DNA of 64,000 bases, taken from Dongia rigui (GTDB lineage: Bacteria > Pseudomonadota > Alphaproteobacteria > Dongiales > Dongiaceae). The stretch spans positions 124,001 to 188,000 of the forward strand of contig NZ_JAXCLX010000001.1 in assembly GCF_034044635.1 (NCBI RefSeq), read 5' to 3'. Below, in pieces: positions 7,425 through 58,272 of this stretch (position 1 is the first letter of the stretch; every line of letters starts with the position of its first letter). The position numbers were made by a program, and so were the translations under genes. The notes beneath the pieces are model-generated. The model was not told the origin of the DNA and searched no databases. It saw nothing but the letters and a program-made list of their open reading frames with translations.

Positions 7425-8207
7425 TTACGCCGAAGCCGTGTTCTCGGCGCCGTCGGCGACCGGGAGCTGTTCAGCCGGCAGTTCTTCGGATTCGCCGATA
7501 TCGGCGCCCGAGGAGATCGCTTCCTGCTGCAGACCGTCGAGCACGGCGCCCGAGAAGAGATCGCAATAGAGCGAGATGGCGCGGATCGCATCGTCATTGC
7601 CCGGAACCGGGAAATTGATGCCTTCCGGCGAGGAGTTCGAATCAAGGATGGCGACGATCGGAATGCCAAGCTTGTTGGCTTCCTTGACTGCCAGCGATTC
7701 CTTGTTGGTGTCGATGATGACGAGGATGTCGGGCTGGCCGCCCATGTCCTTGATGCCGCCCAGCGCGCGCTCGAGCTTGTCGCGGTCGCGGGTCATCATG
7801 AGGAGCTCTTTCTTGGTGAGACCCACCGTGTTGGTCGAGAGCTTCTCTTCGATTTCCCGGAGGCGCTTAATCGACTGCGAAATGGTCTTCCAGTTGGAGA
7901 GCATGCCGCCCAGCCAACGATGGTTGACGTAATACTGGCCGCAACGCTTGGCAGCTTCCGCGACCTTGTCGGCGGCAGCGCGCTTGGTGCCGACGAACAG
8001 GACACGACCGCCGGCCGCGGCGATGTCGCGCACGGTCTTGATCGCCTGCTCGAGCATCGGGGCGGTGTATTCGAGATTGATGATATGCACGCCGTTGCGC
8101 ACGCCGAACAGATAGGGGGCCATCTGCGGGTTCCAACGACGGGTGTGGTGACCAAAGTGAACGCCAGCTTCCAAGAGCTGGCGCATGCTGAATTCTGGCA
8201 GCGCCAT
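7425..8207 (-). CDS. rpsB: 30S ribosomal protein S2
   Basis: Small-subunit ribosomal protein of 260 residues. Start ATG 8207 gives [27 protein letters not shown], the standard S2 N-terminus, with an AAGGAC ribosome site upstream; the frame is open 16 codons further but without family sequence. Other landmarks are [22 protein letters not shown] and [16 protein letters not shown]. The C-terminus has an acidic, alanine-rich tail ([19 protein letters not shown]) often seen in alphaproteobacteria. It heads the rpsB-to-bamA gene string. Confidence 0.97.
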
Positions 8208-8342
8208 TATCTTAAGTCCTTTTCCGGTTAAGCCTCTGCGGATTTTGCGTCCCAAATCAATGACTTAGGACACCGGAGCGAAGTCTGCCGGGATGTCTCC
8301 CCGAGCAGCGCGCGAACCCGCATGCGGTTTGTTAGCGGCGGT

Positions 8343-14002: not shown

Positions 14003-14043
14003 GACAAAAGAATGACGCCCGGCGGTGGATGCCGCCGGGCGTC
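14003..14043 (-). terminator. Terminator of the first PhoX-type gene
   Basis: A 12-bp perfect stem (GACGCCCGGCGG 14014-14025 with 14032-14043, 6-base loop) begins 27 bases after the gene's stop. On the minus strand it is followed by ATTCTTTTGTC, an imperfect T run. Confidence 0.8.
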
Positions 14044-14069
14044 AGGTCGTTCAGCAGGCGATAAACCGA

Positions 14070-15965
14070 TCAGCCGCCGATTTCGCCGCCATCCTGCTTG
14101 GTGATGGCAACGACGCTGGGACGCGGCAGGCTGTCACCGAAATCGGGCCAGCGCGTGGTCAGCTTGTCGGTGTTCTCCGAATCCTCCGCCGGATGCTGGA
14201 CCGAGACGAAGAGCGTCTTTCCATCCGGCGTGAAGGCCGGGCCGCACATTTCCGCACCCGTCGGGCAGGCGAAGAAGAAGCGCGGCAAGGCGCGGCCGTC
14301 ACCCAGCGTGTCGGCACCATAGAGGCCGTCGGCGATGTCGAAATCGGTGGCACCGTCGCTGGCGATCCAGATGCGGCCCTTGGGGTCGAAGGCGATGTTG
14401 TCGGGTGCTGCAAACCAACCGTTGGGGCTGATGCCGGGATTGTATTTCGCCCCCTCCTCCGGCTTGGCGGGATTGCCGGCGAGGAGGAACACGTCCCATT
14501 TGTAGCTGTCGGCGGCGTGGTCGGCATCCTTGCCCTCGCCCGGCGGCAGCATTTCGAGGATGTGACCATAGAGATTCTCGGCGCGCGGGTTGGCGGCGTC
14601 GATCTCATCGGCCTTGCGCTTCTTGTTCTTGGTCATGACAGCATAGACGCGGCCGGTCACCGGATTGGGCTCCATGTCTTCCGGTCGGTCCATCTTCGTG
14701 GCGCCCACCTGGTCGCCGGCAAGGCGCGCCTTGATGAAGACTTCCGCCTGGTCGGCAAAGCCGTTTTCGGGCGTCAGGCCATTTGTCCCGTGGATCAGCG
14801 GGATCCAGGTCAGTGTGCCATCGTCGTTGAACTTCGCTGCCGACAGCGTGCCCTCGTCGAGCAGCTTCTTGTTGGCGGCGCGGTCGTCCGGGTTGAATTT
14901 CCCGGCGCTGACGAAGCGATAGATATGTTCGAAGTAATCGTCGTCACCGGTATAGACGACGACACGGCCGTCCTTGTTGACGATCGACGTCGCGGCCTCG
15001 TGGCCCATGCGGCCCAAGGCCGTGCGTTTCACCGGCAGTTCGTCCGGGGCGTAGGGATCGATCTCGACCACCCAGTCGAAGCGGTTTGGCTCGTTGGGCG
15101 TCTTCTCGAGAATGAAGCGGTCGTCGATGCGCGAGAAGCCGTAGAGGTCGGTGCCGTCATAGAGATAGCGCTCAAGCAGCTTCGGATCGCCGCCCTTGGC
15201 GGGATCGCCGCCGAAGGTATCCGAAAGGCCTTCCTCGCAGGTGAGGATCGTGCCCCAGGGGGTGACACCGCCCGAGCAATTGTAGCCGGTGCCGAACACG
15301 CGGGTGCCCGTCGGATCGGCCGCCGTCTGCAGCAGCTTGTGGCCGGCGGCGGGGCCGGAGATCGCGATTTCGGTCGTGCCGGTGATGCGGCGGTTATACT
15401 TGCTGTCCTTCACCACCTGCCATTTGCCGTTCTCTTTCTTGATCTCGACGATGGAGTGGCCCCAGGCCTGCTGCACCGTCTTGATCTGTTCCGGCGTCAT
15501 CATCTTGCCGGCATCGTCTTCGGTAAGGCCAGGGAACATGATGTGCGGATCGGGATATTCGTTGTTGACGCAAAGGAGGCCATGCTCGCTGTTGGTCGAG
15601 CCCAGCGGCAGCGGCAGATAGCCGATGAAATCGCAGTTGTAGCCGAACTGTTTCGCCTGCGCGTCAGCGCTTTGGCCGGCCGCATCAAGCTCGGTGCCGC
15701 CGGGCAAGATCGCCTCGCCCCAGCGCACCAGAATGTCGGCGTCATAGCCTTCGGCGACGTGATGGGTCTGGTCGTAGATCTTGGTGAGCTCCGGGAAGGT
15801 CAGCGTCGAGGCGCTGGCCGCCGCTTGTGCGCCCGGCAGCCGGAAAGACATGGCCGAAACGGCCGCGGCGCCGGCCGCGCCCAGAAGCATGGAGCGGCGT
15901 GAAAAGCGCGCGGAAACCAATTGCGCGTAAGTGGGTGTCGATGCGTTCTGCGGATGATCCGCCAT
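14070..15965 (-). CDS. PhoX-family alkaline phosphatase, Tat-exported (copy 1)
   Basis: A 631-residue protein of the PhoX (DUF839) family: periplasmic, metal (calcium/iron) dependent phosphomonoesterases exported folded by Tat. The twin-arginine motif SRRSML is at residues 22-27, followed by a hydrophobic run ending at AQA. Family landmarks: LLCVNNEYPD, YNCSGGVTPWGTILTCEEG (with the Cys and Glu of the metal site), GRMGHEAA, KMDRPEDMEPNP and CGPAFTPDGKTLFVSVQHP. ATG 15965 was chosen because CAGGAGGC lies just upstream. A Pho box lies about 75-95 bases before the start. It is a tandem paralogue of the next gene upstream; each has its own terminator. Confidence 0.88.
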   Translation of the reverse strand: MADHPQNASTPTYAQLVSARFSRRSMLLGAAGAAAVSAMSFRLPGAQAAASASTLTFPELTKIYDQTHHVAEGYDADILVRWGEAILPGGTELDAAGQSADAQAKQFGYNCDFIGYLPLPLGSTNSEHGLLCVNNEYPDPHIMFPGLTEDDAGKMMTPEQIKTVQQAWGHSIVEIKKENGKWQVVKDSKYNRRITGTTEIAISGPAAGHKLLQTAADPTGTRVFGTGYNCSGGVTPWGTILTCEEGLSDTFGGDPAKGGDPKLLERYLYDGTDLYGFSRIDDRFILEKTPNEPNRFDWVVEIDPYAPDELPVKRTALGRMGHEAATSIVNKDGRVVVYTGDDDYFEHIYRFVSAGKFNPDDRAANKKLLDEGTLSAAKFNDDGTLTWIPLIHGTNGLTPENGFADQAEVFIKARLAGDQVGATKMDRPEDMEPNPVTGRVYAVMTKNKKRKADEIDAANPRAENLYGHILEMLPPGEGKDADHAADSYKWDVFLLAGNPAKPEEGAKYNPGISPNGWFAAPDNIAFDPKGRIWIASDGATDFDIADGLYGADTLGDGRALPRFFFACPTGAEMCGPAFTPDGKTLFVSVQHPAEDSENTDKLTTRWPDFGDSLPRPSVVAITKQDGGEIGG

Positions 15966-53540: not shown

Positions 53541-54952
53541 CGCCACAGGCTCGCGATACTGCGCAAATCGCCGGTGATCTTCGGCCCGACCGCAATCAGC
53601 ACGCGCGCCAGATAGGCAAGCGGCAGGTGCAGCAGGACCAGGATCACCGGCAGCGCGATCTGCACCGGGATATCGTAATCTTCGGCCGCCCAAATGAGGC
53701 TGTCGAGCAGGCCGGGCAAATTGCCCGCGACGGCCGCTACGACCAGCACGGCAACGGCAAGCTTCAGCCAGCCTTCGCCGTTCAGCGTGACGTTCTGCAG
53801 TTTAAGGCGGCGGCGGATCCATTCGATGATTGCCGCCAGCAACGCGGCCGCAACCGCCACGACGAAAGGCCAGAGAGTCTTGATGAGTTCGTCGATGGAA
53901 AAGAGCGCCGGCAGGAACAGGATCACCAGCCAGCCATAGAGATGCCAGCGCCGGCTTGGCCACGATGTCCGCAGGCCCGTCTGTGCATCCTTGAGACGCA
54001 AACCCAGATAGCCGAAGGCGAGGCAAAACAGCAGCTGCTCGAGATCAATCGCCAAGCCGCCTCGAGCTGTCAGAAGCACGGCCAGATTGCCGAGTACGAT
54101 CAGCGCTACGGTGATCAAAAAGCAGTAGCCGATCCCAGCATACCCCAGCAGATATCCGGCCATGAGAGCGGCCAGAGGCAGGGCAGCATATCGGCCACCC
54201 AGACCGATGTATTCAGGGACAGTCTGCCGATCCGGCAGCAGTGCCCAGGTGAATTGCCACAACAAAGCGACGAGGGCGAAGAAGGCAACCATTGCCCAGC
54301 TGTAGCGCCAAGGGTTGCCGGCATCTCCCCCCTCCGTCACGCAGCGCCCGGCGAGGAACCAACCGGCTGCCGTCACCAGCGTCGCCAGATTATCCAGACG
54401 ATACCGAATCTCTCTCGCCTCCGGGAAATGGAGGCCGAGTGCGACGCCGGCCAGCGTCGCTACCATCAATCCGCCGATGATAAGACCGACCTGGCATCGG
54501 GCTGCCCCCAGCAGGAACAGCACAAAGAAAAACAGCGGCAGCAGCGACACATAAAAATCGAGGGCAACATCATTGCCGAGGTCATGGCGTCCAAGCGCGA
54601 AACTGCATGGCAGCAGGATGAGCACGATCGCCAGTACCCAGGGCCGGCGCAGCACACTTCCGCTCCCTATCAGGGCCTGAACCAGTTGCTCCGACAACGC
54701 GGCACGGCAGACCCAAAGTGCGACGATATACTGCGCAGCACCGCCGCCGATATAGCCACCATTCAGATCCAGAGACGGCCCCAGCGCCGCGATCCCGCCC
54801 AATGCCAATGTGACAAATCCTGGCACGCCATGGCGCCGGCCCAGCCATGCGCCGAGCGGGATCAACAGATAGGGAAGCGAGAGCGAGACGCCGTTGAATT
54901 GCGGCGAATTGTACAGCAGCAGCGGCAGAATCGGGACCAGCACCCACGGCAT
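53537..54952 (-). CDS. Uncharacterised polytopic membrane protein
   Basis: A 471-residue protein with about twelve hydrophobic segments, for example YLLIPLGAWLGRR, ALAIVLILLPCSF-type helices and VQIALPVILVLLHLPLAYLA. The first half resembles MASE1-like sensory membrane domains (LPYLLIPLGAWLG, YIVALWVCRAAL), but no signalling output domain follows, so this is only a suggestion. The ATG at 54952 has GGGGAGG upstream; a GTG at 54958 is the alternative. The opposite strand is open over the same span but is antisense noise. It lies between the PepSY gene and hutF. Confidence 0.7.
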   Translation of the reverse strand: MPWVLVPILPLLLYNSPQFNGVSLSLPYLLIPLGAWLGRRHGVPGFVTLALGGIAALGPSLDLNGGYIGGGAAQYIVALWVCRAALSEQLVQALIGSGSVLRRPWVLAIVLILLPCSFALGRHDLGNDVALDFYVSLLPLFFFVLFLLGAARCQVGLIIGGLMVATLAGVALGLHFPEAREIRYRLDNLATLVTAAGWFLAGRCVTEGGDAGNPWRYSWAMVAFFALVALLWQFTWALLPDRQTVPEYIGLGGRYAALPLAALMAGYLLGYAGIGYCFLITVALIVLGNLAVLLTARGGLAIDLEQLLFCLAFGYLGLRLKDAQTGLRTSWPSRRWHLYGWLVILFLPALFSIDELIKTLWPFVVAVAAALLAAIIEWIRRRLKLQNVTLNGEGWLKLAVAVLVVAAVAGNLPGLLDSLIWAAEDYDIPVQIALPVILVLLHLPLAYLARVLIAVGPKITGDLRSIASLWR

Positions 54953-57164: not shown

Positions 57165-57899
57165 TCAGGTCCGGATGACCAGCAGGGTCTGGCGGATGCC
57201 GTCGATTTCCGTCTCGGTCAGTGGATCGAAGCTGATCGTCGCGCTGGGCGCGTGGCGAAGTGCGACCGTTTCCAGGAGCGATCGGGGGCTGGCCCAGGCG
57301 AGGCCGGAAAGCTGGCGCCGCTCCGCCGTCTCGGGAAAATGCACCAGGGCGGTGCTGCCCGGTGACATCAACGAGACGATGCTGCCGATGTAAGAATCAA
57401 GACGCGCTTCCGGCACCTTCGAGCAAACGTGCCAGGACGCGATCACGCGCGGCTTGTCGGCGCGGACCTTGGCAAGTGTTGCCGGATTGATGACCCCGAG
57501 ATTGGGCGCCTTGGCGGCAACCCAGGCGGGGTCGAGCCGGTCCAGACCCAGCTTGTAGAACTCGTCGGTGATGTCCACGCCCCAATACTTGCCGGGTTCC
57601 AGGAAGTTCATCACGGCGGTACCCAGCCGCAACGATCCGCAACCATAATCTACCGCAACATCATTGGGTTGCAGCCCGTACTTCCGGAGAAAGTCGAGGA
57701 GTTCCGTGTGCTCACGCACCGGCCGCGCTGCCGAGCCGATGGCGGGATGGCCATCGCCGTGACGGATCTTCTTCATCACCGTGTGGACGTAGTAATCCTC
57801 ATAGGGTGCAAAGGGATTCCGGATGCGCCAGCCGATATAGCGCCTGAAGGTGCGCCACCAGCGCCTTGCGGTGAATTTATGAGCCACTAATAACCCCAC
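57165..57899 (-). CDS. Class I SAM-dependent methyltransferase
   Basis: A 244-residue protein with a Rossmann-like motif I VAVDYGCGSLRLGTAVMNFL near residue 80 and motif II at YWGVDIT; VIASWHVCSKVP resembles a later motif. The first 40 residues are very basic (KFTARRWWRTFRRYIGWRIR), suggesting contact with membrane lipid head groups or nucleic acid. No genomic partner suggests a substrate. It abuts hutC tail to tail. Confidence 0.8.
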   Translation of the reverse strand: MGLLVAHKFTARRWWRTFRRYIGWRIRNPFAPYEDYYVHTVMKKIRHGDGHPAIGSAARPVREHTELLDFLRKYGLQPNDVAVDYGCGSLRLGTAVMNFLEPGKYWGVDITDEFYKLGLDRLDPAWVAAKAPNLGVINPATLAKVRADKPRVIASWHVCSKVPEARLDSYIGSIVSLMSPGSTALVHFPETAERRQLSGLAWASPRSLLETVALRHAPSATISFDPLTETEIDGIRQTLLVIRT

Positions 57900-58007: not shown

Positions 58008-58050
58008 TGTGACCTCAGTCACAGACGGCCGGCCGGTTCATGCCTAGATT
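58008..58050 (+). promoter_or_regulatory. CRP-type dyad and -10 box (class II promoter)
   Basis: TGTGA-CCTCAG-TCACA (58008-58023) is a perfect CRP/FNR-family TGTGA-N6-TCACA consensus. A -10-like TAGATT lies at 58045-58050 with no -35. The dyad centre (58015.5) is 41.5 bases before an A at 58057, exactly the class II activator position. Confidence 0.6.
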
Positions 58051-58056
58051 CTGGTC

Positions 58057-58142
58057 ATGAAGCGGGGTTCACCCAACCGTCCCCATCTCCGCTTCAGAGT
58101 GCGGGCGTCCGGTGCCATCCCCATCGGGCGCCCGCTTTATTG
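58057..58142 (+). ncRNA. Predicted two-hairpin small RNA
   Basis: The predicted transcript (about 86 bases) begins at the start implied by the CRP-type promoter. A first hairpin pairs TGAAGCGG (58058-58065) with CCGCTTCA (58089-58096) and presents a C-rich loop with CCCCATCTCC. A second, 11-bp stem (58101-58111 with 58125-58135, one G-T pair) is followed by TTTATTG, an intrinsic terminator. A small open frame runs through the same bases but has no ribosome site. No known RNA family is recognised; this is a prediction from promoter, structure and terminator. Confidence 0.5.
58101..58141 (+). terminator. Intrinsic terminator of the predicted small RNA
   Basis: GCGGGCGTCCG (58101-58111) pairs with CGGGCGCCCGC (58125-58135) across a 13-base loop, followed by TTTATT. 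No plus-strand protein gene ends here (hutC ends almost 1 kb upstream), which is why an independent transcript is proposed. Confidence 0.75.
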
Positions 58143-58197: not shown

Positions 58198-58272
58198 GCC
58201 GGCATAGCACAGTGGTAGTGCAGCGGTTTTGTAAACCGAAGGTCGGGGGTTCAAATCCCTCTGCCGGCACCA
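58198..58272 (+). tRNA. tRNA-Thr (TGT)
   Basis: 75 bases including encoded CCA. The sequence has GCCGGCATAGCACAGTGG at the 5' end, an anticodon arm CGGTTTTGTAAACCG with anticodon TGT, T arm GGGGGTTCAAATCCCTC and a fully paired GCCGGCA/TGCCGGC acceptor stem. Confidence 0.97.

Follow-up and report, generated by a model that had tools for sequence, protein, structure and literature searches.

Organization of the locus

The window analyzed here, a 64,000-nt stretch of the Dongia rigui genome, carries between a methyltransferase-like open reading frame (ORF) and a tRNA-Thr gene a CRP-type dyad, a predicted promoter and two predicted hairpins with C-rich loops (Table 1). The initial annotation had proposed a CRP-activated small RNA in this gap. 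Its view of the surroundings stands for the tRNA-Thr(TGT), whereas the supposed methyltransferase is less certain, since the ORF matches its Pfam family at only 19.6 bits against a cut-off of 27.

Table 1. Coordinates of the predicted small RNA locus and its neighbours within the window
Feature	Position	Strand	Remarks
Putative CRP-type operator TGTGACCTCAGTCACA	58008..58023	.	Centre at -41.5 from predicted start; upstream of 15/15 copies
Predicted -10 TAGATT, without -35	58045..58050	+	TANNNT at dyad offset 36-38 in 11/15 copies
Predicted small RNA, ~86 nt	58057..58142	+	Fold z, models R1/R2, covariation
Hairpin 1: 10-bp stem 58058-58067/58087-58096, 19-nt loop	58058..58096	+	
Conserved C-rich loop 1 CACCCAACCGTCCCCA	58070..58085	+	Invariant in the 10 first-found copies
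Hairpin 2 / putative intrinsic terminator: 14-bp stem 58101-58114/58122-58135, 7-nt loop, tail TTTATTG	58101..58142	+	
Conserved C-rich loop 2 CATCCCC, last base closes stem	58116..58122	+	CATCCC in 15/15 copies
Neighbour tRNA-Thr(TGT), outside the element	58198..58272	+	
Neighbour methyltransferase-like ORF, outside the element	57165..57899	-	Sub-threshold Pfam match

The dyad is the only perfect TGTGA-N6-TCACA in the whole window; with up to one mismatch, two such dyads were found against 1.21 expected from shuffled sequences. The TAGATT hexamer sets the predicted start at A58057 and thereby the dyad centre at -41.5, exactly as initially annotated, and the second part of that description, a -10 without a -35, is likewise borne out, no sigma-70 promoter with a -35 being found at the window copy, which the -35 scan covered. 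A dyad near -41.5, a -10 element and no good -35 are thus combined at the window copy, an arrangement characteristic of class II CRP promoters.

The predicted RNA folds at -43.7 kcal/mol (z -6.0; 0/200 shuffles were as stable), and the C-rich loops of both hairpins are unpaired in this fold. The first hairpin differs from the 8-bp one that had been described, its stem reaching 10 bp. The second hairpin is terminator-like as supposed, but its stem extends over 14 bp instead of 11. In a simple terminator scan of 501 bases, hairpin 2 was the one found against 0.6 expected from shuffles, so that the terminator alone is unremarkable; what is remarkable is its conservation.

Distribution of the predicted RNA among related genomes

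In a BLAST search with the region, six genomes of the genus, that of the window among them, showed a copy close to tRNA-Thr (A copy), and four of these six carried a second one (B copy). In the window's own genome (G000), the latter is located at G000:C1:2079414-2079495 on the minus strand. The 10 BLAST-found copies were used to build a covariance model, R1, restricted to the RNA columns (83 columns), the dyad being left out. R1 matched four further genomes (G005 at 50.4 bits; G009, G015 and G013 at 36.1, 34.8 and 33.7 bits, respectively), and a second model, R2, to which these new copies had been added, revealed a 15th copy in G012, of genus g7 (38.4 bits). The window copy, itself included in both models, scores 105.6 bits with R1 and 100.1 bits with R2. 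With R2 matches kept at E <= 0.01 within the order, BLAST and these RNA-only models together give 15 copies, carried by 11 of the 17 genomes and distributed over the three genera g1, g4 and g7. No copy was found in the six other genomes of the order, one of which is only 68% complete.

The 21 R2 matches with E from 0.01 to 5 were left out, and 11 of them were looked into: five are antisense overlaps of copies, and the five viewed carry no dyad. Weak matches in G014, G008 and G011 were discarded, with neither a dyad in the 100 nt upstream nor loop 1. The last of these 11 lies on the minus strand of the window (14010-14081; 24 bits with R2); it is an ordinary-looking terminator-like hairpin followed by TCATTCTTTTG, which overlaps the end of a 663-codon frame, and both the dyad and loop 1 are absent from the 211 bases read. 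In G014, which lacks the RNA, a terminator hairpin with a CATCCCC loop follows a tRNA-like stretch (L098 1501-1575; G014:C1:194265-194339), either by chance or as a relic.

In the class as a whole, R1 matched five of 289 genomes, four of them from the window's genus; the fifth match, in G209, was rejected, having neither dyad nor loop 1. The dyad followed by CCGTCCCC was present in five of 385 genomes of the class, all of the window's genus, against one match for the control. An exact two-loop pattern retrieved 12 stretches from a collection of species genomes, apparently all belonging to genomes of the order in which the RNA had already been detected, and viral contigs gave 0 matches, though diverged forms could be missed by such exact or strict searches. 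The names attached to the 12 stretches are Dongia mobilis, Dongia deserti, strain R-7 and MAGs labelled Dongia, Rhodospirillaceae, Rhodospirillum or Proteobacteria; in the NCBI taxonomy, Dongia belongs to Dongiaceae, Rhodospirillales.

Conservation of the putative operator, hairpins and loops

Although absent from the models, the TGTGA-N6-TCACA dyad is found upstream of all 15 copies, and the five copies added by the models all have TGTGA-N6-TCACAGA at the right distance. At the -10 place, four copies deviate from TANNNT: the A copy of G004 has TATGTG at dyad offset 37, and three g4 copies have TTTACT or TTAACT at 38. The two main hairpins are formed in 15/15 copies, with fold z values from -2.6 to -7.6, which are modest (-2.6 to -3.6) in four of the five distant copies; G005 has an extra small helix, and hairpin 1 is partly rearranged in the A copy of G004. 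The conservation in related genomes expected by the initial annotation is therefore complete for the dyad and the hairpins and partial for the -10, kept in 11 of 15 copies. Its underlying reading, class II CRP spacing in front of an sRNA with a hairpin-terminator layout, is supported by the same dyads and hairpins.

The stems covary. In an alignment of 14 sequences, which were fitted to R1 and hence lean towards the R1 structure, 98.1% of 324 stem cells are paired, compared with 41-49% in slid controls. Both sides have changed in 10 of 24 pairs, with 28 compensatory cells, and 0/500 shuffles reach any of these values. The signal comes from the four distant copies; inside the 10 closest ones, covariation is small (1/24 pairs).

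The loops behave quite differently from the stems. Among six representatives (15 pairs, ungapped), mean identity reaches 0.94 in loop 1 but is 0.36 along the stem arm, 0.41 across the promoter spacer and 0.26 in the upstream sequence; the pattern by which these copies were selected includes the dyad and CCGTCCCCA, and the identity of 1.00 at the half-sites hence arises by construction. In the five later copies, loop 1 reads CACCCAACCGTCCCCA, CACCCATCCGTCCCCA or CACCTCACCGTCCCCA. At the RNA level, it is CACCCAACCGUCCCCA in g1, CACCCAUCCGUCCCCA in g4 and CACCUCACCGUCCCCA in G012, and loop 2 is CAUCCCC, replaced by CAUCCCA in G012. Conserved single-stranded C-rich loops are thus carried on variable stems, as in a known functional kind of small RNA. 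The U-tails are weak in most Dongia copies, e.g. TTTATTG, ATTCATTCC and AACTATTTT.

A probable CRP-type regulator and its sites

The window's genome contains 17 TGTGA-N6-TCACA sites, against 0 for a reversed-pattern control. A tighter pattern, TGTGACN4RTCACAGA, has 16 matches over the 17 genomes, 13 of them at this sRNA, and its control again has 0. Among 15 dyads fetched from the window's genome, six lie inside some frame of >=150 codons on either strand, which means that not every site need be an operator. A TANNNT hexamer at the class II offset accompanies three of these 15, namely both RNA copies and L194.

One of these dyads (L196 1501-1516; G000:C1:1125876-1125891) overlaps a CRP-like ORF, L115, at the apparent 5' end of this ORF, whose helix is TREAVNKQL. 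Its best PDB chain is 3d0s (E 1e-39), which we take to be the CRP of M. tuberculosis. For a second CRP homologue, L119, with the helix TRETVNRAV, the best chains are 9ya0, which belongs to a large multi-domain protein, and again 3d0s. Both proteins have cNMP domains together with RExxxK or RETxxR recognition helices, and HTH_Crp_2 has 17 matches in this genome, six of them over cut-off. An RExxxR/K helix reads TGTGA and an ExxSR helix reads FNR sites; a CRP homologue presumably able to read TGTGA is thus encoded in the genome, and either of the two may be the one acting here.

Another dyad precedes, by 78 nt, an unnamed ORF that forms an operon-like pair with the CHASE2-adenylate cyclase gene behind it (PF00211, E 8e-25; L206 318-3109, G000:C2:705400-709500); the pair is divergent from another gene. 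The position of this dyad suggests that CRP may control the maker of its own signal. A further dyad occurs 430 nt before a periplasmic-binding-protein gene. Also in this genome, a dyad stands ~25 nt before an ORF of the minus strand (L195 894-1475) that matches the DMSP-lyase family PF16867 at 91.5 bits.

The excess of dyads over the control, with one at the crp homologue and one before the cyclase operon, makes the CRP reading credible. The initial annotation had proposed control by carbon status or a CRP/FNR relative; CRP is favoured over an FNR-type relative by the site counts, by the RExxxK CRP-like gene and by the adenylate-cyclase operon.

Comparison with known small RNAs

As initially presumed, no Rfam family is recognized, either for the window copy or for four other loci. 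At the window copy, no family reaches the gathering threshold, the top match being sX13 (RF02232; 16.9 bits at E 0.43, the cut-off being 50), with HOTTIP_1 also sub-threshold. At the four relatives' loci, none reaches it either; the best is alpha-r14 (25.8 bits against 58.8), with which the G012 copy (L097) aligns over the full Rfam model, whereas the window copy gives no alpha-r14 match up to E 5. Elsewhere in the window, the Rfam rpsB sRNA (RF01815) is found above gathering on the minus strand (8207-8326; 48.3 bits).

The closest analogues are similar in design. The alpha-r14/NfeR1 RNA of Rhizobiales (RF02344) is alphaproteobacterial too, with several hairpins and ultraconserved C-rich loops on divergent stems (PMC10746234), and like the Dongia RNA it has a C-rich loop in the last hairpin (PMC10746234; Rfam consensus). 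NfeR1/alpha-r14 is described with three aSD loops, each of its three hairpins carrying CCUCCUCCC (PMC10746234); the Dongia RNA has two hairpins, and its loops, CACCCAWCCGUCCCCA and CAUCCCC, differ from CCUCCUCCC. Their control differs as well, by a CRP-type operator in Dongia and by LsrB/NtrC for NfeR1 (PMC10746234). The sX13 RNA of Xanthomonas shares with the Dongia RNA stable hairpins, which are three in sX13 compared with two here; its loops are CCCC, and it acts on GGGG motifs near translation starts, Hfq not being needed (PMC3771888). The words "CRP" and "Clp" are absent from the main text of that article (PMC3771888). GsrN of Caulobacter is again alphaproteobacterial, and its strongest conservation falls on a 5' C-rich loop, which pairs with G-rich mRNA; unlike the Dongia RNA, it is sigma-T-driven, it raises katG expression, and its reported BLAST matches are limited to Caulobacteraceae (PMC5869019).

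The likeness of the Dongia RNA to alpha-r14/NfeR1 and sX13 is thus limited to design. CyaR of Escherichia coli, presumably RF00112, is a small trans-acting RNA activated by CRP-cAMP; it is gammaproteobacterial, the window copy has no CyaR match in Rfam, and the two are likened by description only. In the open-licence literature, no small-RNA work on Dongia was found by title, nothing was found on Dongia and the cyclic AMP receptor protein, and CRP-activated or C-rich-loop sRNAs returned only analogues among the matches listed. We file the RNA as a C-rich-loop sRNA with a CRP-type promoter, a kind already known and new in the Dongia lineage, where we know of no such RNA.

Search for targets

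Exact complements, TGGGGACGGNTGG, were found 22 times, 14 of them in the RNA's own antisense and eight within open frames. Pairing was computed for the starts of 51 window ORFs chosen by codon bias. For loop 1, the mean was -11.9, compared with -12.2 (sd 0.8) for shuffled loops, and for loop 2, it was -10.6 in both cases; ORF starts pair slightly better than gene interiors (-10.8 for loop 1 and -9.9 for loop 2). The best-pairing starts belong to ORFs at 54952, 47230 and 61403, all on the minus strand (-25.1, -23.6 and -23.4, respectively), the last of which is cytidylyltransferase-like and probably coaD. As shuffled loops give an equal average, these starts are no more than candidates to be tested. 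Neither exact complements nor pairing energies singled out any target, and the starts of the Entner-Doudoroff operon yielded nothing convincing.

Two further stretches related to loop 1 were observed. In L196, TGGGGAGG, a possible loop 1 partner, stands just downstream of the dyad at the CRP-like ORF; its pairing (-13.9) is not outstanding, but it could place the sRNA and its candidate regulator in a feedback loop. In G007, which lacks the RNA, TGTGACAGAGGTCACAGA is present (L130; G007:C4:92954-92971), and downstream of it stands TGGGGACGG, complementary to loop 1.

The absence of an emerging mRNA target in the complement and pairing searches would also suit an RNA whose C-rich loops capture an RNA-binding protein or a G-rich sRNA instead of mRNAs, and the UCCC core present in both loops is compatible with such a role. 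We know of no protein titrated by such C-rich loops. A carbon-starvation sRNA sponge does exist in Caulobacter (PMC12559287), but in the characterised examples, such C-rich loops have mRNAs as their pairing partners (PMC3771888, PMC5869019, PMC10746234), and titration or sponging is in our view unlikely.

Genomic neighbourhoods

In the window, the A copy is flanked by the methyltransferase-like ORF, hutC and hutF on one side and by tRNA-Thr and bioY on the other. Six genomes have tRNA-Thr on the same flank of the A copy, in one of these Dongia genomes at ~1.3 kb. Each of the four B copies directly precedes a SelR/msrB ORF of the same orientation, with a LysR-type gene behind it in G000 and G003 and an MlaA-type ORF in G004. 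In genus g4, the RNA of G009 (L113) lies beside zwf-pgl-edd-glk-eda and is convergent with eda, only 5 nt separating the end of the model match from the eda stop codon. It likewise adjoins eda in G013, whereas a flavin-reductase-like ORF stands between them in G015. In G012 (g7), the RNA is convergent with eda and next to edd, and the G005 copy adjoins a DUF992 gene. Such differing settings (tRNA-Thr, msrB, eda, DUF992) are as expected for a free-standing gene.

The same arrangements bear on the idea that the element is a cis-acting 5' leader or attenuator of the downstream gene. It would be consistent with the 55-nt gap between the RNA end and the co-oriented tRNA-Thr in the window, and with the constant position of the B copies before msrB. 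Yet the downstream genes are unrelated between copies, in two other genera a convergent gene comes next on this side, and tRNA-Thr has moved away in one Dongia genome. Furthermore, the invariant parts are the loops and not a switching alternative helix, all of which makes a leader quite improbable. A short coding gene has virtually no chance of being the explanation: a 53-codon frame does open at the ATG at 58057, and the 10 first-found copies all retain this ATG, but a 1-nt deletion shifts the frame in the B copies of G000 and G001, the ATG is missing in G005, genus g4 and G012, and the pattern of changes is that of base-pair covariation.

The eda gene, near which the RNA lies in g4 and g7, is over cut-off in 12 of the 17 genomes, including all 11 that have the RNA, a co-occurrence that is confounded by kinship and hence not a proof. 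The sole genome with eda in which the RNA was not found is G008, where no dyad (<=1 mismatch) occurs near eda. We regard this neighbourhood as a lead to carbon metabolism. One speculative and rather doubtful extension would be that the RNA began as an antisense neighbour of the Entner-Doudoroff operon, as it still is in g4 and g7, and that it was freed, moved and duplicated in Dongia. The RNA and eda converge on each other, as immediate neighbours in G009, G013 and G012 and with one gene between them in G015, so that operon transcripts running on beyond eda would hold a perfect complement and could soak up the sRNA. Transcription of the glucose pathway would then directly titrate a CRP-driven sRNA, the two RNAs forming a carbon-flux sensor.

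Proposed mode of action

Collectively, these data indicate that the locus very probably makes a small regulatory RNA under a CRP-type sensor. That it is a stand-alone, CRP-activated sRNA gene whose C-rich loops pair with G-rich mRNA starts is the reading that we consider likely. A CRP homologue bound at -41.5 would activate a sigma-70-type promoter devoid of a -35, in class II geometry, and RNA polymerase would produce an RNA of ~86 nt, ending at the second hairpin. The two C-rich loops could pair with GGGGA and UGGGGACGG-like G-rich stretches around the ribosome-binding sites of several mRNAs, a step proposed from the likeness to sX13, GsrN and NfeR1/alpha-r14. Such pairing would most likely repress these mRNAs, and the cAMP/carbon state would thereby gain a post-transcriptional arm.

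For the Dongia lineage, this provides a clearly delimited family of predicted sRNAs whose candidate regulator can be named. It is also a further case of C-rich-loop sRNAs carried by unrelated stems, with control proposed to come from still another kind of regulator. If the eda link holds, cAMP-CRP would be tied post-transcriptionally to Entner-Doudoroff metabolism in an alphaproteobacterium.
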